Source of the DNA: a virus
IMG/VR virus record: IMGVR_UViG_3300046006_002975
Span: 1 to 64,000 of that record
Strand: one strand, 5' to 3'
DNA length: 64,000 bases
The first letter of the stretch is position 1. Every line of letters starts with the position of its first letter. Positions 11,694-59,007 of this stretch are shown here, piece after piece. The translations under genes were made by a program, and so were the position numbers. The notes beneath the pieces are model-generated. The model saw nothing but the letters and a program-made list of their open reading frames with translations. It was not told the DNA's origin and searched no databases.

Positions 11694-11699
11694 GATAAA

Positions 11700-11707
11700 T
11701 ATTTATA
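11700..11707 (-). promoter_or_regulatory. T4-type late promoter for the minus-strand hub operon
   Basis: TATAAATA read on the minus strand (11707 to 11700). It is divergent from the box at 11717. Its distance to the gp4 ATG (11693) leaves almost no 5' leader if transcription starts at the usual place for T4 late promoters. Confidence 0.6.
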
Positions 11708-11716
11708 AATTATTAA

Positions 11717-11724
11717 TATAAATA
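11717..11724 (+). promoter_or_regulatory. T4-type late promoter for the baseplate operon
   Basis: Exact TATAAATA at 11717-11724, 33 bases before gp48. It makes the 64-base gap between gp4 and gp48 a divergent late promoter region. Confidence 0.7.
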
Positions 11725-11757
11725 GTATTTAGTTAAACCAACAAAAAGAATAAAATT

Positions 11758-13137: not shown

Positions 13138-13140
13138 CAT

Positions 13141-14097
13141 ATGTCTACATTCTTTTCAACTTACCCTAAAACAATTATTAATAATAGATTAATTACGGAT
13201 TTGACGGCAAGAGCTGCAATTAGACAAAAATATTCAGATAGATTATCAATTTATTATCCATATGCATTACAAGAAGGCGATACTCCAGAAATAATTGCAG
13301 CAAAATATTATGGGGATCCAGAAAGGCATTGGATTGTTATGTTGGCTAACGATACAATTAACCCATTTTTTGATTTTGCTTTAGATTACCAAGTTTTTGA
13401 CCGATATTTAAATGACAAATATAAAAACGAAGCAAATAGCGTGAATCAATGGGCGAATTCTACTTGGAGAGGGCAATGGAATACAAATCAATATTTTGTC
13501 GCAAATACTGTAATTGTTAGTAATACTGCGTTTATTTGCAATAAAACTCATACTCCAACAGTATTTCTTGATGATTTAAAGAAAAATTATTGGACTAGAA
13601 TTCTTGATGGAGTTTATTGGAAAGATGAATGGCAAGAAAATATGGACTATAACAAAAATGATGTTGTTAGACATAATAATACGATTTATATCTGTACGCA
13701 AGATAACCTAGATAACGCAAATAATAATATCACATTTTCTGATGCAAATTACTGGAAAACGTATAGTAATGGAGCAGAATATGCAGCAGTAACAACTTAC
13801 GGGTATAGAGCCACCACATCTGTATTTGATAGTAATACTAATGCAACAACTGAAAATACAATATTTATTGATAAAAAATCATATAATGGAGAGTATGACG
13901 ATGACGTATTTAATTATGCTTCAGAAGTAAAAGAATCAGGTAATATTACTAAAACAACAAGTAAAGAACGAATTTCAATATACCAATATGAACAAGAATT
14001 AAATGAATCTAAACGAGAAATAAAATTAATTAGAGAAGAATATGTACCTCAATTAGAACAAGAATTAAAAATATTAATGGAAACATATTATGGCTGA
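13141..14097 (+). CDS. 53: gp53 baseplate wedge protein with two inserted carbohydrate-binding-like modules
   Basis: Codes for 318 residues; T4 gp53 has 196. Residues 1-100 match gp53 (FFSTYPKTIINNR, LQEGDTPEIIAAKYYGDPE, HWIVMLANDTINPF), and the C-terminal helix (YEQELNESKREIKLIREEY) closes the protein as in T4. Between them lie two copies of a module of about 46 residues (109-154 and 160-208), each with W-x-x-x-W/Y, a short turn, a V-x-x-x-x-x-x-Y-I-C strand and a final YW, resembling the small CBM5/12-type chitin-binding fold. gp53 joins wedges into the baseplate; the modules could touch host surface sugars. Confidence 0.88.
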   Translation: MSTFFSTYPKTIINNRLITDLTARAAIRQKYSDRLSIYYPYALQEGDTPEIIAAKYYGDPERHWIVMLANDTINPFFDFALDYQVFDRYLNDKYKNEANSVNQWANSTWRGQWNTNQYFVANTVIVSNTAFICNKTHTPTVFLDDLKKNYWTRILDGVYWKDEWQENMDYNKNDVVRHNNTIYICTQDNLDNANNNITFSDANYWKTYSNGAEYAAVTTYGYRATTSVFDSNTNATTENTIFIDKKSYNGEYDDDVFNYASEVKESGNITKTTSKERISIYQYEQELNESKREIKLIREEYVPQLEQELKILMETYYG

Positions 14098-15436
14098 TGG
14101 TTTATTTTATTCGCAAGATGTATCCATAAAAACTTGCAAAATTGTTGGTAATAATGGAGCACCTATTGATATAAAAAATTTAATTGTGGAATTTAATTAT
14201 TTTGAAGATATTTTTTCTAATTTCGTTAATGGCGCAATAGTAATTAATGATTCTATTGGTATTATACAAATGTTTCAATTTCAAGGTCAAGAGGTACTGA
14301 TTGTTTCGATAGATAAACCTGGATTAGAAAAACCTTTAAGTAAAACATTAAGAATCTATAAAGTTAGCGGAAGAACTCAAACAAAAACTTCTAATGAAAA
14401 TTTTGTTTTACATTTTTGTTCAGAAGAAGCTATGTTAAATGAACAATATAAAATATCAAAATCGTATTCAAATACAAAAATTCTTGATATTGTAAAAGAT
14501 ATAGTTAAAAATGATTTACAAATTGATGATAAACTTTTTACAAATCACGATGAAACTACTGGAATGAAAAGTTTAGTTGTTCCAAATTTAAAACCATTAC
14601 AGGCAATTAATTGGTTAACAACTTTTGCTCAAGCTGATCAAGATAAAAATGCTGGCGCTTTTTATCTATTTTATGAAGATAAAACTGGATTTAATTTTAA
14701 ATCCGTATTAAATTTATATAAACAGCCGATATTCAGAAAATATCAGTATGAAGAAAAGAATTTAAAAAAAGATTTAGTTACAGATTTAACGAAAGAATTT
14801 GTCAACGTTATTGCATTTGAGTCAGTTGGCTCATTTGATTCTGTATCTGCAGTAAAAAGTGGAGCTATGGCAAGTAAAACAATAACAATTGATCCATTAA
14901 GGTTAAAATTCGGCGAAAGTAATTATGATTATACCAAATATATTCAAAACGTGCAATCTTTAGATAAAGCGCCAATACCAAATTCAGCTACAAATAGAAA
15001 AGGAGATTTGTTAAGTCAAACAGCTGGTGCTGTTAAATTTGTAGTTTCAACCTCTGGCCAAAGCGAAAATAAATATATTAAAGATAAAGAAATTCAAGTT
15101 AATGAACATAGACCAGAAGAAACAACTTCTATTAGATCTGCCCAAATGGCTTTAATGTGGTCAAATAGAATAAAACTTGTTGTTGCCGGTGATGTAGAAA
15201 TGACTGTTGGTAAAATTGTTGAATTTAATAAACCAGAGATAAGTTATAATAATTCTAATAGCAAAGAGAAAAAATCTGATCCATTTTATTCGGGTAGATA
15301 TCTTGTTACTGCTGTTAGGCATATACTAAATCAAGAAAATAGATTTTTAACAGTATTGGAACTTTGTAAAGATTCATATCCAAATAAATTTAAAGATTTT
15401 GATAATTCTGATGCAGGTTGGAAGGGTGTAAGATAA
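14090..15436 (+). CDS. 27: gp27-like baseplate hub protein
   Basis: Codes for 448 residues (T4 gp27 has 391) and overlaps gp53 by eight bases. The sequence has the features of hub proteins of the gp27/gpD type: an N-terminal barrel (KNLIVEFNYFEDIFSNFVNGAIVIND), LRIYKVSGRTQT, SKSYSNTKILDIVKDIVK, LKPLQAINWLTTFA and a final strand FYSGRYLVTAVRHIL. The trimer forms the channel between the tail tube and the gp5 spike. Its stop overlaps the ATG of gp5, which is its direct partner. Confidence 0.8.
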   Translation: MADGLFYSQDVSIKTCKIVGNNGAPIDIKNLIVEFNYFEDIFSNFVNGAIVINDSIGIIQMFQFQGQEVLIVSIDKPGLEKPLSKTLRIYKVSGRTQTKTSNENFVLHFCSEEAMLNEQYKISKSYSNTKILDIVKDIVKNDLQIDDKLFTNHDETTGMKSLVVPNLKPLQAINWLTTFAQADQDKNAGAFYLFYEDKTGFNFKSVLNLYKQPIFRKYQYEEKNLKKDLVTDLTKEFVNVIAFESVGSFDSVSAVKSGAMASKTITIDPLRLKFGESNYDYTKYIQNVQSLDKAPIPNSATNRKGDLLSQTAGAVKFVVSTSGQSENKYIKDKEIQVNEHRPEETTSIRSAQMALMWSNRIKLVVAGDVEMTVGKIVEFNKPEISYNNSNSKEKKSDPFYSGRYLVTAVRHILNQENRFLTVLELCKDSYPNKFKDFDNSDAGWKGVR

Positions 15437-36363: not shown

Positions 36364-38874
36364 ATGCCAATTGGTATCGGAACACAAATTAGAAGAACCA
36401 TAGTTAATGCAGGAACAACAACTATAAGCATTGGCTCAGGGAATCAAGCATTTCCATTTGGGGTTAATTCAGTTAAAGTTAATATGAGTGGAAATCCAGG
36501 AACAGCTGGCATTGCAGGTAAAGGAGGATCAGCAGGATTAGCTGGTCCTGGAAGTTGCGGTGGAGCTGGAGGTCCTGGAGGAGCTGCAGGTAAAGGCGGT
36601 AAAGGAGCTTGCGGTGGTCCTGGAGGTTGCGGTGGAGCTGGAGGTACTGCTGGCATTGCAGGTAAAGGCGGTAAAGGAGCTTGCGGTGGTCCAGGAGGCG
36701 CAGGAAGTGCCGGAGGAACTGGGGGAGCTGGAGGTACTGCAGGAGCATATTTAGGGTTAGGGGTGTTAGGTGGTCCTGGAGGTTGCGGTGGAGCTGCAGG
36801 TAAAGGTGGAGCTGGCGGAACTGCAGGAACTGCAGGAAAAGCCAGTTGCGGTCCAGCTGGACTTGGTGGTCCAGGAGGCGGAGCAGGAGGAGGATCTTCA
36901 TCTATTTCCTGCGGCTCATATTCGCCCACTAAATTTATTTTTACTGGAACTGGTGGAGCAGGAGGAGCATCTTGCTGGCACGCAGGAGCAGCAGGTGGAA
37001 CTGGATCTATATATTCTCCTACTCCAGTAGCTATTTTAGGGGGATATGGAGGATTCGCATATGGTGCAACTGGAACTTTATATGGCAGTCCTGGAGAAGT
37101 TACTACAGGTAGAGGTGGAACATACGGTAAAGCTACTACTGCATGCTCGGTAACTTATTCAAGCGGAAATAGAGGAACTGCTGGGGGAACAACATTAAAT
37201 TCTAGTTTTTGCTGTTCTAATTCGTCTTATACGAATATTGCTGGAGCACAAGGCGGGGGCGGAGCTGGCGGAGCAGCATTTCGTTGGAAATCTAATTGTT
37301 GGTATTCAACTGGTGGAGGAGGCGGAGGTGGAGCTGGATCTCCAGGAGGAGCAGGAGTTGCAGGTTCAGTATGGGGCGCAGGAAAAGGCGGAGCTGGTAG
37401 CGCGGGAGCTGCTGGCTCCCCTGGAAAATGCGCTCCAAATACTTTTACTTACGTCTTATGTCCAGTAAATTCAACATATTTTTGCGGAAGTTGCAGGGGT
37501 TATGCCGGCGGATTTGGAGTAGCTGGAGCTAATGCTGCTTTAGATGGTTCTTGTGCGCCAAACACATGGGCATTAACTTGCCCATCAAATAGCGTTCAAT
37601 TTTATGGAAATTGTAGAGGTTATGCTGGAACAAAAGGTACAGAAGGAGGTTGCGGTACTAATGGTATATGCGCTCCAAATTCTTGGCTTGTAACTTGCCC
37701 AACAAACGGGCTTACTCATTATGGGTGGTATAAAGGTTTTGTTGGTACTGCAGGAGCTCCTGGTATCGATGGTTCTTGCGCTACCAGTTGTGCTCCAAAT
37801 ACGTGGACTTCTTGTTCTGGAAATTCTGGAAATGCCGGAACTCCAGGAACTGATGGAAATCAATCTTCTATTTTTTGTATAATTGCTAAAGGAGGAACTG
37901 CTGGTACTGCAACTGCTGGAACTCCAGGAACCGCAGGAACTAAAGGCACGAAAGGAGCTAAAGGAGCTAAAGGTTATACTGGTAATGCAGGAGCTTGTGG
38001 TAATGTAGGGTTTGCAAGTACATATAAAGGCGCAAAAGGGTCTAAAGGATCTAAAGGTACTGATGGCACCTATGGATTCGCCGGATATAAAGGATTAAAA
38101 GGAGTAAAAGGCGCCAAAGGTTACACGGGAAATAATGGATGTACCGGAGGTAAAGGATATAAAGGAACAAAAGGCTCTCCTGGTGGACAAGGTGTAACTG
38201 GATGTCCAGGTAATGATGGAACAGCTGCTATTGCTGGGGTAGGTACTGCAGGAAATTGGGGAGGAGGCGGAGCTGGAGGCTATGCAGGTTCTATATTCAA
38301 TTCCAAATTATATGTACCAACAGTTTTTGGTAGCGATGGAGCAACATATCCAGGAGGCGGAGCTGGAGGTATCGGAAAAGCGTGCGTAGGTCAATCAATG
38401 ACAGGTTCTCCAGGAACTGCAGGAACTGTTGGCGTTTCAACTCAAGGAAAAGCTGGAACTGTTGGCGCAACCGGAAAAGATGGTAATGCAGGAACTCCTG
38501 GATGTATAGGTTTAAGGGGTAACGTAGGACCTGCAGGAAATCAAGGAAAAGATGGAAGTGCTGGAACTCCAGGAACTGCTGGAAATGCCGGAACTCCCGG
38601 AAAAGATGGAACTCCTGGATCAGTTGGAAGCGTAGGTCTTAAAGGTGCATCAGGAACTCCAGGTAATACTGGGGCTGATGGAAATTCAGGAAAAAATGGA
38701 TGCATAGGTCTTAAAGGCGCATCCGGATCTGCAGGATCCCCAGGAAAAGATGGTAGCGCAAATTGCGGGGGGGCTGCAGATACGCTTAGTTGCGTTAGCG
38801 CAAAAATTTCTTCTAGAGTTTCATATCCATATGTTGCTGCGCAAAAAATTACCGTTTCATGGCCAAGACAATAA
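36364..38874 (+). CDS. Collagen-like, Gly-rich and Cys-containing tail fibre protein
   Basis: Codes for 836 residues. After a 35-residue N-terminal strand region (RRTIVNAGTTTISIGSG) the protein is Gly-rich. Residues about 45-210 are irregular GG/GA/GP repeats. Four Cys-rich units starting CAPNT or CAPNS lie at nt about 37428-37830. From about residue 520 there are true Gly-X-Y triplets, for example GTKGTKGAKGAKGYTG, GTPGKDGTPGSVGSVGLKG. Pro and Lys favour the Y position, the site hydroxylated in animal collagen. The C-terminus (SYPYVAAQKITVSWPRQ) may be a trimer foot. Three oxygenase genes follow. Probably a host-binding fibre. Confidence 0.78.
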   Translation: MPIGIGTQIRRTIVNAGTTTISIGSGNQAFPFGVNSVKVNMSGNPGTAGIAGKGGSAGLAGPGSCGGAGGPGGAAGKGGKGACGGPGGCGGAGGTAGIAGKGGKGACGGPGGAGSAGGTGGAGGTAGAYLGLGVLGGPGGCGGAAGKGGAGGTAGTAGKASCGPAGLGGPGGGAGGGSSSISCGSYSPTKFIFTGTGGAGGASCWHAGAAGGTGSIYSPTPVAILGGYGGFAYGATGTLYGSPGEVTTGRGGTYGKATTACSVTYSSGNRGTAGGTTLNSSFCCSNSSYTNIAGAQGGGGAGGAAFRWKSNCWYSTGGGGGGGAGSPGGAGVAGSVWGAGKGGAGSAGAAGSPGKCAPNTFTYVLCPVNSTYFCGSCRGYAGGFGVAGANAALDGSCAPNTWALTCPSNSVQFYGNCRGYAGTKGTEGGCGTNGICAPNSWLVTCPTNGLTHYGWYKGFVGTAGAPGIDGSCATSCAPNTWTSCSGNSGNAGTPGTDGNQSSIFCIIAKGGTAGTATAGTPGTAGTKGTKGAKGAKGYTGNAGACGNVGFASTYKGAKGSKGSKGTDGTYGFAGYKGLKGVKGAKGYTGNNGCTGGKGYKGTKGSPGGQGVTGCPGNDGTAAIAGVGTAGNWGGGGAGGYAGSIFNSKLYVPTVFGSDGATYPGGGAGGIGKACVGQSMTGSPGTAGTVGVSTQGKAGTVGATGKDGNAGTPGCIGLRGNVGPAGNQGKDGSAGTPGTAGNAGTPGKDGTPGSVGSVGLKGASGTPGNTGADGNSGKNGCIGLKGASGSAGSPGKDGSANCGGAADTLSCVSAKISSRVSYPYVAAQKITVSWPRQ
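37428..37830 (+). repeat. Four Cys-rich CAPN repeats in the collagen-like fibre
   Basis: Units beginning CAPNTFTYVLCPVN, CAPNTWALTCPSN, CAPNSWLVTCPTN and CAPNTWTSCSGN repeat about every 120 bases. The first two continue with a paired C-x-G(Y) motif (FCGSCRGYAGG, FYGNCRGYAGT); the third has lost those Cys (HYGWYKGFVGT). Confidence 0.8.
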
Positions 38875-38898: not shown

Positions 38899-39171
38899 AT
38901 GAAAAAATATGAATATACATATAAAATAAAAGATATTAATATAGCCGAAAATGCTCTTCTTGTTGAATATATGGCTACAGATGAATCTTTAACATCATAT
39001 ACTCTTCATATTCCTTCCTATATACTGAATGAAGATGAAACGAGAAAAACTATTGACGAAGTTATTAAATTTTGCGCTCCTCATGGTAGATGGGAATCTC
39101 AAGAAATTTTAGTTGAACAATATAATGATATTTTACATAAAACTGAACTGGTGCCTATACAAAATGCTTGA
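38899..39171 (+). CDS. Small protein of unknown function before the oxygenases
   Basis: Codes for 90 residues, with AAAGGAA upstream of ATG 38899. Mixed strand/helix sequence (YEYTYKIKDINIAENALLVE, LHIPSYILNEDETRKTIDEV) without motifs I recognise. It overlaps the next gene by eight bases, so it is translated together with the 2-oxoglutarate oxygenases and may serve the same fibre-related purpose. Confidence 0.5.
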   Translation: MKKYEYTYKIKDINIAENALLVEYMATDESLTSYTLHIPSYILNEDETRKTIDEVIKFCAPHGRWESQEILVEQYNDILHKTELVPIQNA

Positions 39172-39766
39172 AATACAAAATAATGGTATTGCTATATTTG
39201 ACAATGCCTTTAGTGACGAATATTGCGATCAAGTTATAAATTTTTTTGAATGGTCGCAAAAAAATAATAGAACATGGAATAGATTACAATCAGAAAATGC
39301 TCAAGAAATATATAAAAATGATATATCAGCTTCGCTGCATGCATCAATAAATGAAAGATATTTTTCATCAGATAACACCAATTTAGTTGCTGAATTTAAT
39401 GATACGTTTTTTGATGTTTGGTATGCAGAATATTTAAAATATTTTTCGACATTAAATACTGCAGAAAAGCATGGTATTTTTGCACACAAAATACAAAAAA
39501 CTTCTCCTGGAGGAGGATATCATTTATGGCATTTCGAAGCCGGAGGATTAATTACTTCCAGAAGATTAGGTGCATATATTTTATATTTAAACGACATTGA
39601 TGTTGGGGGAGAAACTGAATTTCTATATCTTCGTCAACGAATAGAACCGAAAAAAGGAAGATTGGTAATTTTTCCTTCTGGATACGTATTTACACATAGA
39701 GGAAACCCTCCGTTAACTAGCGATAAATATATAATGACGGGTTGGTTGGAGTATATGGGAGGATGA
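39164..39766 (+). CDS. 2-oxoglutarate/Fe(II) oxygenase, prolyl 4-hydroxylase-like
   Basis: Codes for 200 residues from ATG 39164; an in-frame ATG at 39113 lies inside the previous gene and adds sequence foreign to the family. The double-stranded beta-helix motifs are present: YHLWHFE with His123 and Glu125 as an H-x-E iron pair, the strand AYILYLNDIDVGGETEF, KKGRLVIFPSGYVFTHRG with distal His178, and Lys188 ten residues later, the 2-oxoglutarate anchor used by prolyl 4-hydroxylases. It would hydroxylate a protein or small substrate. The neighbouring collagen-like fibre is the obvious candidate, but this is inference. It overlaps the next oxygenase gene by four bases. Confidence 0.82.
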   Translation: MLEIQNNGIAIFDNAFSDEYCDQVINFFEWSQKNNRTWNRLQSENAQEIYKNDISASLHASINERYFSSDNTNLVAEFNDTFFDVWYAEYLKYFSTLNTAEKHGIFAHKIQKTSPGGGYHLWHFEAGGLITSRRLGAYILYLNDIDVGGETEFLYLRQRIEPKKGRLVIFPSGYVFTHRGNPPLTSDKYIMTGWLEYMGG

Positions 39767-40359
39767 GCAAATATTTATTTCACCCTATTGTAACAAAAAA
39801 TCAAGATATTGGAGATTATGTTTTCTGGCAACAAGGGTTTAGCGATAAGGATATTAATGCTATTATTGCATTAGGAGAAAATAGAAACCCAATACAAGCA
39901 ACTATAGATAGAAATAGAGTTGTTAGGGATATTAGAGTTTCAAATACTTCATGGATAGATTTACAAGAAGATTCAGTTTGGTTATATGATAGAATATGTG
40001 ATATTGTATGTAAATTAAATTATCAATACTATAAATTTGATTTAAGCGGGTTTTATGAACATATGCAATTTACTATATATGAAGGTAATGAATTAGGGCA
40101 TTATGATTGGCATTTAGACAATAATTTAAATTCAGATTCTCCGCCAAGAAAATTATCTTTTGTTTTACAATTATCAGATCCAAACGATTATGAAGGCGGC
40201 GATTTACAATTAATGCATTCAACAAATCCCGTAACTGTAAAAAAAGAAAAAGGGTTAGTAGTTGTTTTTCCAAGTTTTACTTTACATAGAGTGACTCCAG
40301 TAACAAAAGGAATTAGAAAAACCTTAGTTGTTTGGGTGACTGGACCATCATTTAGATAA
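39763..40359 (+). CDS. 2-oxoglutarate/Fe(II) oxygenase, PKHD type
   Basis: Codes for 198 residues from ATG 39763 (ATGA overlap with the preceding stop). Iron ligands are His117 and Asp119 in HYDWHLD and His175 in FTLHRV; Arg185, ten residues on, would hold 2-oxoglutarate. The strands RKLSFVLQLSDPNDYEGGDL and KGLVVVFPSF are typical of the PKHD/prolyl hydroxylase branch found in many marine T4-like phages. Such enzymes hydroxylate Pro or other residues. Together with its two neighbours it forms an oxygenase cluster right after a collagen-like fibre gene. Confidence 0.87.
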   Translation: MSKYLFHPIVTKNQDIGDYVFWQQGFSDKDINAIIALGENRNPIQATIDRNRVVRDIRVSNTSWIDLQEDSVWLYDRICDIVCKLNYQYYKFDLSGFYEHMQFTIYEGNELGHYDWHLDNNLNSDSPPRKLSFVLQLSDPNDYEGGDLQLMHSTNPVTVKKEKGLVVVFPSFTLHRVTPVTKGIRKTLVVWVTGPSFR

Positions 40360-40372
40360 AGAGATTTATATT

Positions 40373-41053
40373 ATGAAAAAACCAAAAATATCCAGAAGAA
40401 GAAATACACATCAATATAAAAAAACTAATCAAATAGAATTAGAAACTTTTTTATATTTCCCGACAGCGATTCATGCAACAAATCTTCCTGAGTTTTTGGA
40501 TGTAGCCAATAAAGTATCTAAAGAGTTTCTAGGAAAACAAAAAGAAGAAATTAATGATGTTTATCCTGTTCGTATGACTGGTCAGATATATAATGACGAA
40601 AGATTATCTGAATTATGCGATGCAATATTAGATCTTGGATGGAATGTTTTAGATCAACAAGGTTATGATATGCAACATTTTAGAGTTATATTAACCGAAA
40701 TGTGGGTTCAACAACACCACAAATACTCTTTAATGGAGCATCATGTACATGGAGGAGATCAACTTGTTGGATTTTATTTTCTTAAAGCGCCAAAAAATGG
40801 TTCAAAACCTATTTTTTATGACCCAAGACCAGCAAAAGTAATTACAGATTTACCATTAAAACCTTCAGCAGAAATTAATGCAGCAACAAATATTATAAAT
40901 TTTGATGCAACTCCAGGAAGAATGTTTATCACAAATTCATTTCTTCCGCATTCGTTTTCAAAAAACGCTTCTAATGAACCAACTGAATTTATACATTTTA
41001 ATTTAAAGGTAGTTCCATATTTTAAAGAAACTTCTAATGTAGAAATTGTATGA
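40373..41053 (+). CDS. Putative 2-oxoglutarate/Fe(II) oxygenase (PF13759-like)
   Basis: Codes for 226 residues. WVQQHHKYSLMEHHVHGGDQ followed by LVGFYFLKAPKNGSKPIFYD matches the 2OG-FeII_Oxy_5 family, in which an H-x-H/H-x-D motif (here His124 and His126) and a distal His (PHSF, His193) hold iron. The N-terminus is basic (KKPKISRRRNTHQYKK). Homologues are frequent in cyanophages near structural genes; substrates are unknown. It overlaps the following small gene by four bases. Confidence 0.75.
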   Translation: MKKPKISRRRNTHQYKKTNQIELETFLYFPTAIHATNLPEFLDVANKVSKEFLGKQKEEINDVYPVRMTGQIYNDERLSELCDAILDLGWNVLDQQGYDMQHFRVILTEMWVQQHHKYSLMEHHVHGGDQLVGFYFLKAPKNGSKPIFYDPRPAKVITDLPLKPSAEINAATNIINFDATPGRMFITNSFLPHSFSKNASNEPTEFIHFNLKVVPYFKETSNVEIV

Positions 41054-43921: not shown

Positions 43922-44359
43922 ATGACATCTAAATTTAATAAAACAATGGAGGAAATATTTAATGTTCCTTCATTGGTGAACGAAGAAGAAACTGAATTTG
44001 CAGAATTTTTACCTGCAGAACAATCAACTCATGATTTATCTACTTTATTAGATCACGATTTAAAAACTGATTATGAAAAAACTAGAGAAAGTATTGATTC
44101 GTTAATTGCAAAAGGAACTGAAGCTATTGATGATATGTTGGCAATTGCTAGGCAATCAGAAAAAGCTCGCGATTTTGAAGTTGCTGGCAATATGATAAAA
44201 ACTGTTGTTGATGCGTCAAAAGAATTACTTGAAGTTCAAAAGAAAATGCGCGATATTACAGGTAAAAAAGAAAACGTTACTCAAAATATTAAAAATGCAG
44301 TTTTTGTTGGTTCTACTAAAGATTTAATACGATCTATTAAAAATGAGAATAATGAATGA
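43922..44359 (+). CDS. 16: gp16 terminase small subunit
   Basis: Codes for 145 residues (T4 gp16 has 164). The helical core DYEKTRESIDSLIAKGTEAI and DDMLAIARQSEKARDFEVAG-NMIKTVVDASKELLEVQKKMR is diagnostic of the T4 small terminase, which regulates the gp17 motor and helps to start packaging. It overlaps the gp17 start by four bases (ATGA). Confidence 0.95.
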   Translation: MTSKFNKTMEEIFNVPSLVNEEETEFAEFLPAEQSTHDLSTLLDHDLKTDYEKTRESIDSLIAKGTEAIDDMLAIARQSEKARDFEVAGNMIKTVVDASKELLEVQKKMRDITGKKENVTQNIKNAVFVGSTKDLIRSIKNENNE

Positions 44360-45264
44360 TTGATTTTGAGGGTAGCAATAAGTTATATTATAGAGATAAT
44401 CCTAATCTAAGAAGAGCGGGTATTGAAAATTGGGAATTCGATCAACATCAAACAGATGAACTTAGAAAATGTATTAATGACCCAATATACTTTATTCGTA
44501 ATTATGTAAAAATTATTAATCTTGATGAAGGTCTTGTCTATTTTGATATGCACGACTATCAAGAAGAAATGGTTCAAGCATTTCATGAAAATAGATTTTC
44601 TATTGTAAGGATTGGCCGGCAATCAGGTAAAACCACAACATCTGTTGGTTATCTTTTATGGTTATCATTATTTACCGAAAATTATAATATTGCTATTACA
44701 GCTAATAAAAAATCATTAGCTGTTGAGATTCTTTCTCGATATCAATTAGCCTATGAAAATTTACCTATGTGGTTACAACAAGGTATTGTTATATGGAATA
44801 AAGGTAGTATTGAATTAGAAAATGGATCAAAAATGTTAGCAGCTTCTACTGCTGCTAGTTCTGTTCGTGGTGGATCATTTAATCTTGTATTTATGGACGA
44901 ATTTGCTCACGTTCATAATAACTTAGCCGAAGAATTTTTTACTTCAACATATCCTGTAATTTCCTCAGGTAAAACAACAAAAATTATTATTGTATCTACT
45001 CCTCGTGGTATGAATTTATACTACAAAATGTGGATGGATGCAGTAAGTAAAAAGAGTGATTATAAAGCTGTTGATATTCATTGGTCTAGAGTTCCAGGGC
45101 GCGATGAAAACTGGAAAGAAACTACGATTAGAAATACTTCTGCTCGTCAGTTTAACCAAGAATTTGCATGCGTTACTGGGGATACAATAGTTGAAATACA
45201 GGATGAATTTGGTAATGAACAAAAAATTACAATGCGTAAATTACATTCGCTTATGAATTCTTAG
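44356..45264 (+). CDS. 17: gp17 terminase large subunit, N-terminal half fused to a split N-intein
   Basis: Codes for 302 residues. Residues 1-271 are the ATPase half of gp17: GRQSGKT (Walker A, 87-93), LVFMDE (Walker B, 177-182) and the coupling segment TKIIIVSTPRG. After QEFA the frame runs into Cys272, starting a 31-residue N-intein: CVTGDTIVEI (block A) and QKITMRKLHSLMNS, then a stop. The missing remainder begins at 45883. The fragment is too short to be a full N-intein of the usual split; the AceL-TerL intein, also in a phage terminase, has the same atypical early split. Trans-splicing would restore EFA-CEFLG, the T4 sequence context. The motor pumps DNA into proheads. Confidence 0.92.
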   Translation: MIDFEGSNKLYYRDNPNLRRAGIENWEFDQHQTDELRKCINDPIYFIRNYVKIINLDEGLVYFDMHDYQEEMVQAFHENRFSIVRIGRQSGKTTTSVGYLLWLSLFTENYNIAITANKKSLAVEILSRYQLAYENLPMWLQQGIVIWNKGSIELENGSKMLAASTAASSVRGGSFNLVFMDEFAHVHNNLAEEFFTSTYPVISSGKTTKIIIVSTPRGMNLYYKMWMDAVSKKSDYKAVDIHWSRVPGRDENWKETTIRNTSARQFNQEFACVTGDTIVEIQDEFGNEQKITMRKLHSLMNS

Positions 45265-45300
45265 GAATTCATAATATTATAAATAATTATATTTATAATA
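45251..45300 (+). promoter_or_regulatory. Two back-to-back hairpins holding the late promoter of the HNH gene
   Basis: Hairpin 1: TTATGAATTC (45251-45260) and GAATTCATAA (45265-45274) around a TTAG loop that contains the stop codon of the N-intein gene. Hairpin 2: TATTATAAATA (45275-45285) and TATTTATAATA (45290-45300). The late box TATAAATA (45278-45285) is in its left arm, and the ribosome site GGAG begins at 45301. Late transcripts would start after the left arm and so lack hairpin 2. Confidence 0.75.
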
Positions 45301-45311
45301 GGAGCATATTT

Positions 45312-45908
45312 ATGTCAAAACATAGAAAAATATGGGAAGAGCATTATGGTAGTATTCCAAAAGATTATGAAGGAAGAACATATGAAATACACCATATAGA
45401 CGGTAATAGGAATAATAATGATATTACCAATTTGAAATGCGTATCAATATGCGAGCATTTTAATATTCATCAAGCGCAAGAGGAATTCGGAGCTTGCGCT
45501 ATGATAATGAAACGTATGGATATGTCAACAGAACAAATTTCTAATATACAAAAAGGAATTAAAAGACCTGGAATTGGAGGAGTAAAAAAAGGAACTATTC
45601 CATGGAATAAAGGTAAAAAAATATTTGTTTCCGAAGATTTAAAAATAAAACGTTCTAAAAATAGCACTGGGGAATTAAATTCTAAAGCAAAATTAAAAGA
45701 AAACCAAGTTATAGAAATATTAGAATTATATTTTAGTAGACCAAAATTAGAGTCAGAAGGAATAACACAAAGAAACGGTAGAGTTGATTCATATGAATGG
45801 AGTTTTTCTAAGTTTTATGCAAATACTTATGAATTAACTCCAGCAGCTTTAATGCGATTATTAACCAAAAAAAGTTGGAAACATGTTTGGGAAAAATACA
45901 AAATATAA
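45312..45908 (+). CDS. Free-standing HNH homing endonuclease inside the split terminase gene
   Basis: Codes for 198 residues. YEIHHIDGNRNNNDITNLKC followed by EHFNIHQAQ is an HNH motif (His-His, Asn, His) typical of phage homing endonucleases. The lysine-rich centre (KRPGIGGVKKGTIPWNKGKK) resembles NUMOD-type DNA-binding segments, and the C-terminal part (YEWSFSKFYANTYELTPAAL) may bind DNA too. It stands between the two intein-bearing halves of gp17, has its own late promoter and GGAGC ribosome site, and overlaps the C-intein gene by 26 bases. It probably spreads the split-intein block into intein-free terminase genes. Confidence 0.85.
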   Translation: MSKHRKIWEEHYGSIPKDYEGRTYEIHHIDGNRNNNDITNLKCVSICEHFNIHQAQEEFGACAMIMKRMDMSTEQISNIQKGIKRPGIGGVKKGTIPWNKGKKIFVSEDLKIKRSKNSTGELNSKAKLKENQVIEILELYFSRPKLESEGITQRNGRVDSYEWSFSKFYANTYELTPAALMRLLTKKSWKHVWEKYKI

Positions 45909-47112
45909 AATAAAAACTATAAATGGATGGGAAAAGTTTAGAGGTGTAAATAAATTACATAAAAAACGAACCGTTCAGATTATAACACAAAATAACTGTT
46001 TTCTTGATTGTACTATAGATCATAAAATAAAAACTCTTGATGGTTATAAAGAAATTAGCGAATTATCTGATTTAGATTTTATAGAGACTATTCATGGATT
46101 TTCTAAAATTGATTTTATTTCTGAAAATTTTGAATTAGAAGAAGTTTTTGATGTCATAGATGCGGGAAACGATAAATGTTATTATACTAATGGAATTTTA
46201 TCGCATAATTGCGAATTTTTAGGTTCTACAAATACATTAATCGATGGATCAAAATTACAAACTCTTGTTGCAGTAGATCCATTAGATACTGATGATGAAA
46301 TATTTGCTGGAATAACAATTCCAAATGAAATGGATGTATTTATTCCTCCAGTTAAAGAATCATTTGATGATGAAACTAAAAAACAAATAGATAAAGACCA
46401 TATTTATGCAATGACTGTTGACGTTTCAGAGGGGAAAAACTTAGATTATGCTGCATTTTCCATTTTTGATGTATCAACAATTCCATATACACAAGTAGCT
46501 ACATATAGAAATAATCAATTACATCCAATGTTATTTCCAGATATTATTAAAATGGCTGGAGAATATTATAATAATGCATATGTATTAATTGAGGTTAATA
46601 ATAATCCAACAGTAGCAGATACTTTATTTCAAGATTTAGAATATGAAAATGTATTAAAAGTTTATGCAGGAAACAAAAAAGCTCAACAAATAAGCGAGAA
46701 CGGTAAAGCAACACAAAATGGCGTAAATATGAGCCCATTAGTCAAACGTGTTGGCTGTACCACATTAAAGACTTTAATTGAAACTGATAAATTACGAATT
46801 AATTCCAGCGAAACTATATATGAATTAACTCGATTTATTGCAACAAATAACTCATTTGCAGCTGAAGAAGGAGCTAATGATGATTTAGCGATGACTTTGG
46901 TTATTTTTGCTTGGTTATCAACTCAAAAATTATTTATAGAATTATCTTCTACAGATATCCGTAAAAGATTACAAATAGAAAATAATTATATTAAAGAAGA
47001 TGATATTGACGTTCCACCTATGCCGCAATTTAGTAATCCATTAATGGATAGATTTACATTAGAAGATGGCGATTTATGGGAAGTTGTTGAACCAGCAGGA
47101 TTTTATTATTAA
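45883..47112 (+). CDS. 17: Split C-intein fused to gp17 terminase large subunit, C-terminal half
   Basis: Codes for 409 residues. Residues 1-109 are a C-intein: CTIDHKIKTLDGYKEISELS resembles block B and after, VFDVIDAGNDKCYYTNGIL block F, and SHN-C the C-terminal junction (Asn109, then Cys110). It starts MFGKNTKYKIKTINGWEKF, like the C-part of the AceL-TerL intein. Residues 110-409 are the gp17 nuclease half: FLGSTNTLIDG, MTVDVSEGKNLDYAAF (Asp180), VLIEVNNNPTVADTLF and NDDLAMTLVIFAW supply the acidic metal-binding residues. Together the two exteins make 571 residues (T4 gp17 has 610). The ribosome site is weak (TTGGAA), so coupling to the HNH gene is likely. Confidence 0.9.
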   Translation: MFGKNTKYKIKTINGWEKFRGVNKLHKKRTVQIITQNNCFLDCTIDHKIKTLDGYKEISELSDLDFIETIHGFSKIDFISENFELEEVFDVIDAGNDKCYYTNGILSHNCEFLGSTNTLIDGSKLQTLVAVDPLDTDDEIFAGITIPNEMDVFIPPVKESFDDETKKQIDKDHIYAMTVDVSEGKNLDYAAFSIFDVSTIPYTQVATYRNNQLHPMLFPDIIKMAGEYYNNAYVLIEVNNNPTVADTLFQDLEYENVLKVYAGNKKAQQISENGKATQNGVNMSPLVKRVGCTTLKTLIETDKLRINSSETIYELTRFIATNNSFAAEEGANDDLAMTLVIFAWLSTQKLFIELSSTDIRKRLQIENNYIKEDDIDVPPMPQFSNPLMDRFTLEDGDLWEVVEPAGFYY

Positions 47113-53873: not shown

Positions 53874-55208
53874 ATGGCTTTATTAAACGAAGAATTGCAA
53901 AATAAATGGAGTCCAGTTCTGGATCATCCAGAATTAGCAAAAATTACTGATCCATACAAAAAAGCAGTTACTGCAATTGTATTGGAAAATCAACAAGCAG
54001 CGATGGATTCAGATCGCGAAACATTGATGGAAGGAACACCAACTAATACAACTGGTGGTATTTCTAACTTCGATCCAATTTTAATCAGTTTAGTACGTCG
54101 TGCTTTACCTAACTTGATTGCATATGACGTAGCTGGCGTTCAACCAATGACTGGTCCTACTGGATTAATCTTTGCTTTACGCTCACGTTATGGCGCTCAA
54201 GGTAACGGTACATTCCCTAACGGTGGCGGTAACGAAGCATTCTATAACGAAGCTAATACTATTTTCTCTGGTATTATCGGCACAGGTGGTTCAACTACTA
54301 CAGGTACAGCAAATTCAGCTGTAGGTTCTACAGGTCCATTAGCTAATTCAGCTTTTGATACTGGACAAGCAATGACAACTGCTATGGGTGAAGTATTAGG
54401 CGATGGTGCTGGTACTGTATTCGGCGAAATGTCAATTTCAATCGAAAAAGTTACTGTTTCTGCTAGAACTCGTGCATTGAAAGCTGAATACAGCTTAGAA
54501 ATGGCTCAAGATTTGAAAGCAATTCATGGTTTGGATGCTGAAACTGAATTATCAAACGTTTTATCTACAGAAATTCTTGCTGAGATGAACCGCGAAGTAA
54601 TTCGTACAATCTATACAGTAGCTAAAGCTGGTGCTCAATTCGGTACAGTTACTCCAGGCGTATTCGACTTAGATACAGACTCAAATGGTCGTTGGTCAGT
54701 TGAAAGATTTAAAGGTTTGATTTATCATATCGAAAGAGAAGCTAATCAAATCGCTAAAACAACTCGTAGAGGAAAAGGTAACATCTTAATCGTTTCTTCT
54801 GACGTTGCTTCTGCTCTAGCAATGGCTGGCGTATTACAATATACTCCTGCATTATCAGCTGACTTACAAGTTGATGATACTGGTAATACATATGCTGGTT
54901 TGTTACATGGTCGTATCAAAGTTTATATTGATCCTTACTTCGGTGGTTCATACCAAAACGTTGAATTATGTACAGTTGGTTATAAAGGTACAAGTCCTTA
55001 TGACTCTGGTTTATTCTACTGCCCATACGTTCCTTTACAAATGGTTCGTGCAGTTGATCCAGGTACTTTCCAACCAAAAATCGGCTTTAAAACTCGTTAC
55101 GGTTTAGTAGCAAATCCATTCGCTGAAGGTACAACCCAAGGTCAAGGTTTGATTACTCCACGTAGCAACAACTATTACAGAATCTTTGCTGTGAAAAACT
55201 TAATGTAA
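53874..55208 (+). CDS. 23: gp23 major capsid protein
   Basis: Codes for 444 residues (T4 gp23 has 521), preceded by AAGGAG. Hallmarks: KWSPVLDHPELAKITDPYKK, SLVRRALPNLIAYDVAGVQP, MTGPTGLIFALRSRYG, KAEYSLEMAQDLKAIHGLDA and the C-terminal GFKTRYGLVANPFAEG. TLMEGTP at residues 50-56 fits the gp21 rule, so the mature protein probably begins at Gly54. No gp24 vertex paralogue is seen in the window. Codons here are more C-rich at wobble positions than in neighbours, as expected for the most highly expressed gene. Confidence 0.98.
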   Translation: MALLNEELQNKWSPVLDHPELAKITDPYKKAVTAIVLENQQAAMDSDRETLMEGTPTNTTGGISNFDPILISLVRRALPNLIAYDVAGVQPMTGPTGLIFALRSRYGAQGNGTFPNGGGNEAFYNEANTIFSGIIGTGGSTTTGTANSAVGSTGPLANSAFDTGQAMTTAMGEVLGDGAGTVFGEMSISIEKVTVSARTRALKAEYSLEMAQDLKAIHGLDAETELSNVLSTEILAEMNREVIRTIYTVAKAGAQFGTVTPGVFDLDTDSNGRWSVERFKGLIYHIEREANQIAKTTRRGKGNILIVSSDVASALAMAGVLQYTPALSADLQVDDTGNTYAGLLHGRIKVYIDPYFGGSYQNVELCTVGYKGTSPYDSGLFYCPYVPLQMVRAVDPGTFQPKIGFKTRYGLVANPFAEGTTQGQGLITPRSNNYYRIFAVKNLM

Positions 55209-55272: not shown

Positions 55273-56082
55273 TTAGAAAAAACTATCTAAATCAAAAGAC
55301 GTGGATCTTTGATATTTACCTCCACTGGTATCTCGTAAACGTAATTCAGCATGACCTGTAGTTTCACGAACATATTTTGTACATAAATCAGGAAATCTAC
55401 GAACCAAATCATCAGCACTTTTATCAATACGCTCAAGAGTTCGTTCAACTTGCATTCCTCCATCTTCAGTATAATATTTTGATATAACAGTAATATTATC
55501 TAATCGCGAAACTGACCCATCAAGAACATAATGTTGAAGAGTTCTTTCAAAATCTTCTTTGTCACATAATTGAACCATACGATCTTGATGTTTATCGTTA
55601 ATGCAGCCCCACAGCGACCCAATGCAGTAATATAAACCAGTCTTAGGGGTATAACTCATAAAAAACGCATTCGACGCTGCATAGACACCACAGAGCTTAT
55701 TTTCGTTCTCCTGCATAATATTATACATTGGCTCAAATACTTCTTTATGGATATCTTCAATTGGCTCCATTTTCTTTTCATCAGCAGGAGCTTTGCGCAT
55801 AATACTCGATAAATCATCATCAAAATTTACAACAAATTCCCCCTCATCATAATAATTTCTAATAAAGTTTCTAATCGGTCCCATACCAACAACGCCTACA
55901 ACAATATTTTTGTTATAAATGTTATCTTTTAATGATGTTTCGTATGCAGTCTTTTCGACATCATTAGCAACAAAGATTGTTACTGTACTTGGATCTACAT
56001 TATATTTCTCCAATACACTTAAAGTTTTATCTCTAAGCGTATCAGATCGTTTATACGAAGGAATTGCAATATTCAATTTCAT
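55273..56082 (-). CDS. TAGT-like glycosyltransferase (DNA base glycosylation candidate)
   Basis: Codes for 269 residues. A GT-A fold is suggested by the start LNIAIPSYKRSDTLRDKTLS, the strand TVTIFVANDVEK and FVVNFDDDLSSIM, in which Asp88-90 would hold the metal and nucleotide sugar. The overall pattern resembles the TET/JBP-associated glycosyltransferases described computationally in phages. Twelve hundred bases away on the same strand is a TET/JBP-type dioxygenase, so a sugar on a hydroxylated base is the likely product. It has its own sigma-70-type promoter (56122-56150) and is not in the late class. A different sugar acceptor, such as protein, is possible. Confidence 0.7.
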   Translation of the reverse strand: MKLNIAIPSYKRSDTLRDKTLSVLEKYNVDPSTVTIFVANDVEKTAYETSLKDNIYNKNIVVGVVGMGPIRNFIRNYYDEGEFVVNFDDDLSSIMRKAPADEKKMEPIEDIHKEVFEPMYNIMQENENKLCGVYAASNAFFMSYTPKTGLYYCIGSLWGCINDKHQDRMVQLCDKEDFERTLQHYVLDGSVSRLDNITVISKYYTEDGGMQVERTLERIDKSADDLVRRFPDLCTKYVRETTGHAELRLRDTSGGKYQRSTSFDLDSFF

Positions 56083-56112
56083 AATCTACCCTTTAATTTT
56101 AACTAAAAATAA

Positions 56113-56120
56113 TATAAATA
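56113..56120 (+). promoter_or_regulatory. Possible late promoter for the GIY-YIG gene
   Basis: Exact TATAAATA at 56113-56120 on plus, 108 bases before the GIY-YIG gene, in a very AT-rich gap. It lies next to the minus-strand promoter of the glycosyltransferase. A hairpin (GCTTAT 56163-56168 with ATAAGC 56187-56192) is in the leader. Confidence 0.5.
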
Positions 56121-56121
56121 T

Positions 56122-56150
56122 ATTATACTATATTATTTTGATATTGTAAA
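56122..56150 (-). promoter_or_regulatory. Sigma-70-type promoter for the glycosyltransferase
   Basis: On the minus strand: TTTACA (56150-56145), 17-base spacer, TATAAT (56127-56122) within TAGTATAAT. About 40 bases before ATG 56082. Confidence 0.8.
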
Positions 56151-56228
56151 GCAAAAAAAAATGCTTATCACGATCCTGGCAGATCTATAAGCTCTAAACA
56201 TTCGTTTTAACATTCATAGAGAATATCA

Positions 56229-56951
56229 ATGCCCAGCAAAAATATTTATACAAATAAAAATAAATTTACCTTAAACTATTATGTTTATGCATACATAAGA
56301 ACAATCGATTCAATAACAGCAAAAAGCGGCACGCCATATTATATAGGAAAAGGTATAAAAAATAGAGCATTTAAAAAACACGGAAAAGTTCCTGTTCCTA
56401 AAGACAAAAATTATATAGTTTTTGTTGAAACTAATTTAACAGAAATCGGTGCATTAGCTATAGAACGAAAATTAATTAAATGGTATGGAAGAAAAGATTT
56501 AGGAACAGGAATTCTATTAAATAGAACTGATGGCGGAGACGGGATATCAAATCCATCAATATGTATTCGTAAAAAAATATCTATAGGGCAAAAAAATAGA
56601 ATAATATCTGACAGCGAAAAACAAAATACAGCAAAAAGAATGATCGGTAATACATATGGAACTGGGAAAAATTTAAAAAACACTAATGCAGCAGGAAAAA
56701 GGTCAAAACAAGCTATAGAAAATTCAGCTTTAGCGCATAGAAAAATTTATAATATAATTTCTCCTAATGGAAAGAATTATTTTATTTTAGGGTTAAAACA
56801 AATATGTAAGAAATTAAATTTAAATTATAGTGGTATGTTAAATGTATCAAGAGGAATAAAATTACACCAAAATGGATGGAAATGTATTAAGGTTGGGAAG
56901 ATACAAGATTTCCCCAACCTTAATTTAACTTCTCTAGAAGAAATCTTCTAA
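56229..56951 (+). CDS. GIY-YIG homing endonuclease
   Basis: Codes for 240 residues. The catalytic domain shows YYVYAYIR (GIY variant, 17-24), [13 protein letters not shown] (YIG 38-40, Arg46) and [16 protein letters not shown] with the metal-binding Glu79. The C-terminal part has repeated basic modules ([37 protein letters not shown]) typical of NUMOD/IENR DNA-binding units of Seg-like enzymes. It sits on plus between two minus-strand genes, and its last 18 bases overlap the end of the TET/JBP gene, so it is a mobile gene inserted in the modification locus. Confidence 0.9.
56886..56924. terminator. Hairpin at the convergent ends of the GIY-YIG and TET/JBP genes
   Basis: A 12-bp inverted repeat, ATTAAGGTTGGG (56886-56897) and CCCAACCTTAAT (56913-56924), with a 15-base loop. 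It lies ten bases beyond the TET/JBP stop on minus and inside the last codons of the GIY-YIG gene on plus. A terminator for the minus-strand gene is likely, though no clear U run follows. Confidence 0.55.
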
Positions 56952-58352
56952 TCCATTACATTCGTTTGCAGATTTTAACCAAGGGTGACGTTCAATTAAC
57001 CATTTTTCTCCAACGTCGCCTTTTGCTTTTAAGAAATCATACCATTCTTTTGCTGCAGAATAATTATAGTTTTTATCTGGAGTATCAGCCCACATTCCTG
57101 GAGTAATACCATTCCAACGATATCTTTGGTTTGGATGATTTGGGTTTAATCTGCGACTATCAATAAATTCTCTTCTTGCATCTTCATAATCATAAGACCC
57201 AAGTTCTAACATTTTTTCATGAAAAAAGGCTATAATAGAAATTCTTTCTGAATTTGGATTATTCTTTATCATTTCAGTATTGCCATGCAAACCTGCTTGA
57301 TTATTTACTAATAATAAATCAGTAGGTCTAATATCAACTGCATACCCAATTTCAGGAAATACCAAATAACACCCAGAATAGTCATCATTATTGCTAATTA
57401 CACAAAGATTAGCAAACCCGTTTTCCATATTAGCAGGATCGTAATGACCCGCTGTTCTAAAGTCTCTATTTACTGTAATTGTCGTAAATGGAGTATCCGG
57501 TACAACAAATCTTTGATCGATCGATTCTGCAGCACGTTTTTGATTACCATAACGCCATGGCAGCATATCTTTAAAACCTTTAGCTAAAGATTGTAAGAAT
57601 GGATAAGACTTAGAAAACTTTTCTAGATTATCTCTTGTATAGGTAGTTGGTCTACCAAAAGGAATTCTAGGATATCTATCATACCAACCAGCAATACCAG
57701 AATTTACGACATTAGCATAAGTCGTTTTACTAATCAATTTATCTAATACTCGTTGAGCTTCAGCTTTTGCTTCATCAATAGTTAATGCGCATAATTTATC
57801 GATAAAGTCATTAAATACAAATTTCTCAGCTCTAATTTGCTCAGTCAACCAGACGACACCACGACTATCATCAGATTTAAGATTTTTATACTTAGCTCGT
57901 ATTAAATCAACATCTGCCTTTGGCGTATATCCGCCAAATACTGAAGTCGAATTTTTATGTGCAAAGAATTCCAATAAATCAAATTGTTCATCAGTAACCC
58001 ATTCTCTTCCTGCGCATGTAGCAGTTCTTGGACCACCAGCCATACCACGATTTTGCGTTTCAACAGCTGCATCGCGCAAACCAGCATAAGCGGCATCAGC
58101 TTCTTCTTTAGTAAAAAAGTTTTTACGAAATTTAAATACGATATTTTTTTCAGATAAGCCTTTTGAACAACCAGAACAATTCATATCATTATCGCAATTT
58201 TCTTCGGCAGTAAAATCTGCGCAATCTGGAGGAAGATATACATCTAAATCTTCTTCAACTAATATCTTATAATGGCTTTCATCAAGCCATTTACCAACCA
58301 AATCGGGTCTTGGAGTTACCTCTTCTGGTCTTAAAACTACAACTTTTACCAT
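56934..58352 (-). CDS. TET/JBP-family 2-oxoglutarate/Fe(II) dioxygenase (DNA base oxidation)
   Basis: Codes for 472 residues, with AGGAGA before ATG. The segment [20 protein letters not shown] holds the iron pair His303 and Asp305; [20 protein letters not shown] is the following strand pair; GLHGNTE gives His356; and [12 protein letters not shown] gives the 2-oxoglutarate Arg370. [13 protein letters not shown] near residue 100 is like the N-terminal signature of TET/JBP proteins in phages. Family members oxidise 5-methylcytosine or thymine in DNA. An unexplained Cys cluster (44, 53, 59, 62) could bind zinc. It has its own sigma-70-type promoter, unlike the late genes. With the nearby glycosyltransferase it forms a probable base-modification pair. 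Confidence 0.85.
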
Positions 58353-58381: not shown

Positions 58382-58410
58382 ATTGTACTACATAACTTAA
58401 AAAAAGTAAA
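58382..58410 (-). promoter_or_regulatory. Sigma-70-type promoter for the TET/JBP gene
   Basis: On the minus strand: TTTACT (58410-58405), 17-base spacer, TACAAT (58387-58382) within TAGTACAAT, a one-base variant of the nonamer seen at the other early promoters. Confidence 0.72.
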
Positions 58411-58467: not shown

Positions 58468-59007
58468 ATGGCTTTCGAAGATACAAACGTCTGTAATACC
58501 GATTTATTACAGTCATCGAAGTTTACTTTTATAATTCCAAGATTAACAGAGGTTCAGTTTTTCTGTCAAGCTGTTAATATTCCTGGAGTAAACACGCAAA
58601 GTACAGTTCAGTTATCTCCATTTAGGGATATGGGTGTTCCAGGCGATAAAATGGAATACGAAGATCTTAATGTAGAATTTCTTGTTGATGAAGAATTGCG
58701 CTCTTGGGCGTCAATTTATTATTGGATTAAAGGTTATACGCAAGCTGAAACTTGGGATGATTATAAAAATTTAGATAAATTATCAAAATATAGTCAATAC
58801 GAATATTTAAATACTCCACAATATGCAGATGCATTATTAACAACATTATCTGCAGCTGACGATAAACCAAAAGTACAAATACATTTTATTGATTTGTTTC
58901 CTGTATATGTTTCTGCTATACCTTTAGATGTTAGGATTAGTTCTGAAAAAATTATTACTGCTACAGCAACATTTAGATTTAAAAGGTATGAAATAGCATT
59001 AGTTTAA
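58468..59007 (+). CDS. 3: gp3 tail completion protein
   Basis: Codes for 179 residues (T4 gp3 has 176). SSKFTFIIPRLTEVQFFCQA, VNIPGVNTQSTVQLSPFRDM, GDKMEYEDLNVEFLVDEELR and IYYWIKGYTQ follow the pattern of gp3 in cyanophages, where it lies between gp23 and uvsY as here. gp3 ends the tail tube before gp15 joins. Late promoter upstream, ATTATAAGG ribosome region. Confidence 0.75.
   Translation: MAFEDTNVCNTDLLQSSKFTFIIPRLTEVQFFCQAVNIPGVNTQSTVQLSPFRDMGVPGDKMEYEDLNVEFLVDEELRSWASIYYWIKGYTQAETWDDYKNLDKLSKYSQYEYLNTPQYADALLTTLSAADDKPKVQIHFIDLFPVYVSAIPLDVRISSEKIITATATFRFKRYEIALV

Follow-up and report, generated by a model that had tools for sequence, protein, structure and literature searches.

Phages that pair a TET/JBP-type dioxygenase with a TET-associated glycosyltransferase (TAGT) were described in 2013 by Iyer, Aravind and colleagues, who, according to PMC4111573, predicted that phage TAGTs glycosylate the 5-hydroxymethyluracil (5hmU) produced by JBP-like enzymes. 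The literature that we surveyed contains no chemical demonstration of such a route, thymine hydroxylation followed by glycosylation, in phages. Here we analyze a locus of this kind at positions 55,273 to 58,352 of a 64,000-nucleotide stretch of viral DNA (the window; positions 1 to 64,000 of IMG/VR record IMGVR_UViG_3300046006_002975), the full record being a 97,144-bp fragment from the genome of a T4-like phage. Like the 2013 systems, as far as the description in PMC4111573 extends, it has a TET/JBP-TAGT operon with glycosylated 5hmU as the proposed product. It differs from them in its T4-like lineage, and in that the absence of methyltransferases and hydroxymethylases and the exchange of TAGT with amino acid:DNA transferase (ADDT) and GT-B glycosyltransferases were tested directly. 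The prediction having been made in 2013 for the family as a whole, we regard the locus as a new, well-supported member of a predicted kind and not as a new kind; the present analysis adds the exchange of cassettes and a lineage-wide substrate test.

The kinetoplastid base J pathway (JBP1/JBP2 and JGT) uses a dioxygenase of the same Pfam family, with the same proposed passage from thymine through 5hmU to glycosyl-5hmU, whereas the present locus is from a phage, has no detected J-DNA-binding or SNF2 domain and has another glycosyltransferase context. The cytosine systems of Burke 2021 and of the Melnitz type likewise combine a phage TET/JBP dioxygenase with glycosyltransferases for DNA hypermodification, but the lineage of the window has no C5-methyltransferase and its TETs form a separate clade. 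For phages M6, ViI and PhiW-14 the expected shared intermediate is 5hmU, and they have ADDT in common with sister phages of the window; however, their 5hmU comes from a nucleotide hydroxymethylase, whereas TET would generate it within the polymer, and they end with an amine where the window variant would end with a sugar. The TAGT of T6 (beta-glucosyl-HMC-alpha-glucosyltransferase) is, like that of the window, a PF20691 glycosyltransferase of GT-A fold acting on phage DNA (a predicted role in our case); T6 uses 5-hydroxymethylcytosine (5hmC) from the nucleotide pool, with an alpha-glycosyltransferase acting first, whereas the window record has no PF00303 hydroxymethylase. We propose, at a probability of roughly 0.68, that the locus is a two-enzyme cassette of a T4-like phage in which TET would convert thymine in DNA to 5hmU and TAGT would convert this to glycosyl-5hmU.

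The TET-TAGT pair

The cassette consists of two minus-strand genes, found where an earlier note on the window, made from the sequence alone, had placed them:

55273..56082, minus strand: TET-associated glycosyltransferase (TAGT), 269 amino acids, GT-A fold, DDD motif D88-D90 (from PF20691, PHROGs, AlphaFold2 model and Foldseek)
56934..58352, minus strand: TET/JBP-type 2-oxoglutarate/Fe(II) dioxygenase (TET), 472 amino acids (from PF12851, phrog_24024, residues, AlphaFold2 model and Foldseek)

The 472-residue protein matched the TET_JBP family PF12851 at 86 bits (E = 2.1e-24; curated cut-off 34.9) and phrog_24024 of PHROGs at E = 1e-129. PF12851 was its sole match in the Pfam search, which did not detect the J-DNA-binding and SNF2 domains that are accessory to JBP. 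The catalytic residues that the earlier note had picked out, namely His303, Asp305 and His356 (the HxD...H Fe(II) ligands) and Arg370 (the 2-oxoglutarate arginine), all fell within just nine invariant columns of an alignment of 17 diverse phage TETs. When the AlphaFold2 model (mean pLDDT 86) was compared with the PDB using Foldseek, ranks 1-26 were all TET2, CcTet, NgTET1 or CMD1, that is, DNA-base dioxygenases (E = 8e-10 to 2e-6), at modest TM-scores of 0.28-0.44 by query. Judged by profile, residues and fold, the protein is a TET/JBP dioxygenase.

The 269-residue protein matched PF20691 at 44.9 bits (E = 1.7e-11; curated cut-off 27.5), phrog_842 (beta-glucosyl-HMC-alpha-glucosyltransferase) at E = 6e-11, and phrog_25200; by family membership it is a TAGT glycosyltransferase. 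Its DDD motif (Asp88-Asp90) was invariant among 15 aligned homologues, and its AlphaFold2 model (pLDDT 90) has the GT-A fold that the earlier note had suspected, with the cell-wall GT2 enzymes RmlT, TarS and TarP nearest in Foldseek. A GT-A fold close to GT2 is expected for TAGTs (PMC13216743); given these nearest folds, the assignment to a DNA role rests on family membership and the linkage to TET, not on fold. A TAGT profile compared with solved structures gave nothing meaningful, and neither TET nor TAGT had a match in NCBIfam or PADLOC. Profile searches thus bore out both assignments of the earlier note. The contrary outcome that it had envisaged, placement in protein-hydroxylase and cell-surface glycosyltransferase families, was not observed for TET; the TAGT protein falls in PF20691 by profile and is nearest in fold to cell-wall enzymes.

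TAGT homologues were collected independently from IMG/VR for a linkage count, and in 25 of the 25 loci that extended far enough upstream, TAGT was preceded by a TET of the same family, immediately or after one or two intervening genes (in several cases an NAD-dependent epimerase). The linkage is not due to chance; the pair is a real unit. Among complete phages, TAGT adjoins TET in S-CBWM1 and is a few genes from it in DLP6; the TAGT-like gene of Cr30, with a profile match below the cut-off, is several genes away. TAGT is the sole gene adjoining TET in close relatives of the window. A scan of bacterial genomes found just two small fragments, in actinomycete metagenome-assembled genomes, which are probably stray phage contigs. 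We consider it very probable that the locus encodes a DNA-modifying TET-TAGT pair.

Thymine or cytosine as the substrate

The earlier note, seeing no cytosine methyltransferase in the window, had left thymine and cytosine both under consideration; our comparative data favor thymine. The C5-methyltransferase family PF00145 was absent not only from the window but from its whole 97,144-bp record (itself a fragment), from the complete genomes of the four phages whose annotated TETs are closest (Cr30, DLP6, C48C1 and S-CBWM1), from 33 further IMG/VR clade records and from 12 records with a window-type TAGT. In total, PF00145 was found in 0 of 50 clade records (~3.0 Mb, including the window record and the four complete genomes), whereas in the same search all 10 records with a Melnitz-type TET showed a C5-methyltransferase beside it (Fisher P = 1e-11, for related records that are not independent and a control set that is one lineage). 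N6/N4 methyltransferases were likewise not conserved in the clade, with one sub-cut-off match for PF01555 and one match for PF02086, in C48C1. As PF00145, PF01555 and PF02086 are all absent from the complete genomes of Cr30, DLP6 and S-CBWM1, thymine would be the sole methylated base arising from the recognized genes of the phage. Nonlabens phage P12024L has TET, TAGT and an N6/N4-type methyltransferase in a row (L095 5734-7999); its complete 35.7-kb genome has no C5-methyltransferase.

The nucleotide hydroxymethylase family PF00303 was absent from the window record and had a single clade match, in Cr30, in a search that recovered the positive controls T4, SPO1, M6, ViI and PhiW-14. The Cr30 protein scored 373 bits, against just 50-78 for the hydroxymethylases; to judge by this score, it is an ordinary thymidylate synthase. 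A dCMP deaminase (PF00383) that would feed the thymidylate pool is encoded elsewhere in the window record (L002 10300-10812). A search for ADDT (PF18724) gave matches in Cr30 and eight long clade records, as well as in M6, ViI and PhiW-14, three phages known to have in their DNA a hypermodified thymine that derives from 5-hydroxymethyldeoxyuridine (5hmdU) (PMC6449724), but none in T4, in SPO1 or in the three Melnitz-type records searched. The clade ADDT sits downstream of the same TET, and its sharing with M6, ViI and PhiW-14 suggests that TET stands where those phages have the hydroxymethylase. The 97-kb record of the window contained neither ADDT nor a PF18751 kinase.

Exchange of partner enzymes behind TET

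In a survey of 80 IMG/VR loci of the TET clade, the gene adjoining TET varied among TAGT, a GT-B enzyme (PF00534, cluster 17), an ADDT module (in the gene order glutamine amidotransferase, amidoligase-like, GNAT, ADDT, P-loop kinase) and a kinase alone. The variation extends to the window's own site, where, between the same two structural genes, TAGT was found in L011-L013, the ADDT module in L014, a GT-B enzyme in L015, L018 and L019, and a kinase in L016 and L017. By parsimony on a quick tree of 100 TETs, partner state changed at least 16 times, an approximate count in which state labels were automatic (C48C1 and L021 being imperfectly labeled) and some branches long. The pattern is that of a constant TET, predicted to make a chemical handle, followed by exchangeable elaborating enzymes.

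Some loci carry further genes. The ADDT, TAGT-like and inositol-1-phosphate synthase genes of Cr30 (KF301602.1, L004) adjoin one another downstream of TET (11027-14474), a combination that suggests a complex base, and in L021 and L062 TET and ADDT are likewise paired with inositol-1-phosphate synthase. Two relatives of the window, L189 (8810-10252) and L192, have a 480-amino-acid open reading frame (ORF) without a Pfam match inserted directly downstream of TAGT.

Proposed mechanism and sugar donor

In the pathway that we propose, TET, with Fe(II), O2 and 2-oxoglutarate, would act on phage DNA after its replication, forming 5hmU by hydroxylation of the 5-methyl group of thymine. TAGT would then move a sugar from a nucleotide-sugar donor to the 5hmU hydroxyl, yielding glycosyl-5hmU, an analogue of base J; and, to judge from the class of pathway, the bulky base would shield phage DNA from restriction and other DNA-targeting defenses. 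We infer thymine hydroxylation by TET from the absence of other methylated substrates together with the ADDT exchange. As the final product we somewhat favor a simple glycosyl-5hmU.

Sugar-nucleotide genes adjoin TET and TAGT in several relatives: an epimerase in L194 and L206; a set of HAD, nucleotidyltransferase and APH kinase genes in S-CBWM1; and a UDP-galactopyranose mutase in C48C1. Their diversity suggests that donors differ between phages. A heptose donor was considered for S-CBWM1 and dropped, as the annotated 'phosphoheptose isomerase' has just a weak HAD-hydrolase match. The window record has a HAD-nucleotidyltransferase fusion (L003:821-2203). Genes for glycosyltransferase, nucleotidyltransferase, epimerase and small-molecule methyltransferase-like proteins are clustered at 82-89 kb of the record (L003 1-7431); they may supply the sugar donor or serve a glycan pathway of their own.

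Weighing of alternative explanations

From these comparisons we regard thymine, rather than cytosine, as the likely substrate, but several points weigh against it. The residue at position +5 from the first Fe ligand, which we take by motif spacing to be the equivalent of NgTET1 D234 and TET2 N1387, is N or D in methyltransferase-free and methyltransferase-linked clades alike, so that the active site as read does not discriminate the substrate. (The stretch before HxD does differ between the two TET clades, TVNxxFRTAxHxD vs. SANRYSAYQSAKMAAHVD, and is a candidate for mutation, not evidence on substrate.) The P-loop kinase of PF18751 type, a companion of ADDT in the clade, has a weak match in Melnitz-3 as well, a phage of the cytosine type; thus, kinases do not mark thymine. 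The literature surveyed gives no base composition for the phage of the window or for any clade phage. Because the window record is a fragment, the missing part might hold a methyltransferase, although the complete relatives argue otherwise. Finally, a C5-methyltransferase of the host could supply 5-methylcytosine (5mC). With 5mC made by such a host enzyme, or by one that we missed, TET would produce 5hmC and TAGT would glycosylate it, a route with precedent: in the literature surveyed, all phage TETs tested so far act on cytosine, the demonstrated ones on 5mC in company with a phage C5-methyltransferase (Burke 2021, as cited in PMC12730594), Melnitz-type TETs adjoin a C5-methyltransferase, and the T6-type TAGT works on glucosyl-5hmC (PMC13216743). 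We nonetheless consider the cytosine route unlikely, in view of the absence of PF00145 from all 50 clade records, four complete genomes among them, and of the swapping of TAGT with ADDT, which elsewhere in this analysis was confined to thymine-hypermodified phages. Dependence on a host enzyme would moreover tie the modification to host specificity, and is improbable given how widely the hosts (Caulobacter, Stenotrophomonas and Synechococcus) differ.

The remaining alternatives concern what TAGT does, and whether the target is C5-modified DNA at all. TET may make 5hmU while TAGT contributes a second group or works on some other product (e.g., giving a disaccharide, or following a transferase encoded elsewhere), just as the T6 TAGT puts a second glucose on an already glucosylated base (PMC13216743); Cr30 has both ADDT and a TAGT-like gene by TET, and the TAGT of L206 is accompanied by another, weaker TAGT-like gene. 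For the window this appears quite doubtful, with TAGT alone adjoining TET in its close relatives and with no ADDT or PF18751 kinase in its own record. Action on another methylated target, such as N6-methyladenine (6mA) or RNA, could be argued from CcTet, a structural match that was solved with 6mA DNA (7w5p), and from the N6/N4-type methyltransferase beside the pair in P12024L. However, the chemistry of ADDT and TAGT better fits attachment of sugars and amino acids to a C5 hydroxymethyl group, and we rejected 6mA because the clade has no conserved N6/N4 methyltransferases; we give such targets very little credence. That the pair might instead be a protein hydroxylase and a cell-surface glycosyltransferase, as the likeness of TAGT to RmlT, TarS and TarP would allow, seems scarcely credible and was rejected on the profile and fold of TET, which matches the TET/JBP Pfam family only and has DNA-base dioxygenases as its best folds; furthermore, the partners swap with ADDT, a DNA-acting family, and the prolyl-hydroxylase-type oxygenases of this phage are separate genes (39113-41053).

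Genomic setting of the cassette

The neighboring genes and other features of the locus are:

53874..55208, plus strand: major capsid-type gene, left neighbor, convergent with the cassette (from position and the homologous neighborhood in L009-L020)
56122..56150, minus strand: putative sigma-70-type promoter of TAGT (TTTACA-17-TATAAT), between the inserted ORF and TAGT (consensus scan, 11/12)
56229..56951, plus strand: homing-endonuclease-type ORF, 240 amino acids, between TET and TAGT (from PHROGs, a NUMOD-like profile and comparison with relatives)
58382..58410, minus strand: putative TET promoter of sigma-70 type (TTTACT-17-TACAAT), with an AGGAG ribosome site after it (consensus scan, 9/12)
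58468..59007, plus strand: tail-tube-like gene, 179 amino acids, right neighbor, divergent from TET (same neighbor in L009-L020)

The cassette and the late genes occupy opposite strands, and the capsid-type and tail-tube-like genes flanking the cassette bound an insertion site common to the window and its relatives L009-L020; T4-like head and tail genes surround it, in agreement with the phage origin assumed in the earlier note. That note had not mentioned the 240-amino-acid ORF, which matched phrog_2081 (HNH endonuclease; 8e-8) and phrog_15526 (6e-18) and has a NUMOD-like C-terminus (PF22083, 15 bits, below the cut-off) and, by eye, a GIY-YIG-like N-terminus. Relatives L011-L013 lack this ORF, TAGT beginning a few bases past the TET stop codon; its insertion therefore appears to have split a once-compact gene pair in the window. 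The promoter predicted at 56122..56150 would let TAGT be transcribed despite the inserted ORF; the number of predicted sigma-70 promoter matches around the cassette was not above that in shuffled sequence.

Elsewhere in the window, at 44356-47112, an HNH endonuclease ORF (45312-45908) separates the two ORFs, Terminase_6N and Terminase_6C, into which the large subunit of the T4-like terminase is split. The N half ends ...ACVTGDTIVEI... and the C half carries ...NGILSHNC, which by eye resembles a split intein with a free-standing homing endonuclease; neither half had an intein match in Pfam. The three prolyl-hydroxylase-type 2-oxoglutarate-Fe(II) oxygenases (PF13640, PF13759) lie in a row, directly preceded by a collagen-like protein rich in Gly (36364-38874), and the rest of the record has a fourth (L002 5047-5706); these enzymes may hydroxylate the collagen-like tail protein.

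Implications

We lean slightly toward the broader expectation that the virion DNA contains glycosyl-5hmU formed by post-replicative oxidation of thymine, which would be the first demonstrated viral base of the J type, and that TET is a fixed entry enzyme whose finishing modules (TAGT or GT-B for a sugar, ADDT for an amino acid, a kinase for a phosphate) are swapped, changing the final base. Since cultured relatives exist, namely Cr30 (Caulobacter crescentus), S-CBWM1 (Synechococcus) and DLP6, the substrate question is directly testable in this lineage. If our proposal is true, a phage enzyme would hydroxylate thymine in DNA without the help of a methyltransferase, and a glycosyltransferase would be able to act on 5hmU in duplex DNA, where the T4 beta-glycosyltransferase acts on this base just at a mispair (PMC4111573). 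Solitary TAGTs, without an alpha- or beta-glycosyltransferase, occur in phage genomes (PMC13216743); the proposal would offer a function for some of these, and an idea of how phages quickly change the decoration of their DNA.

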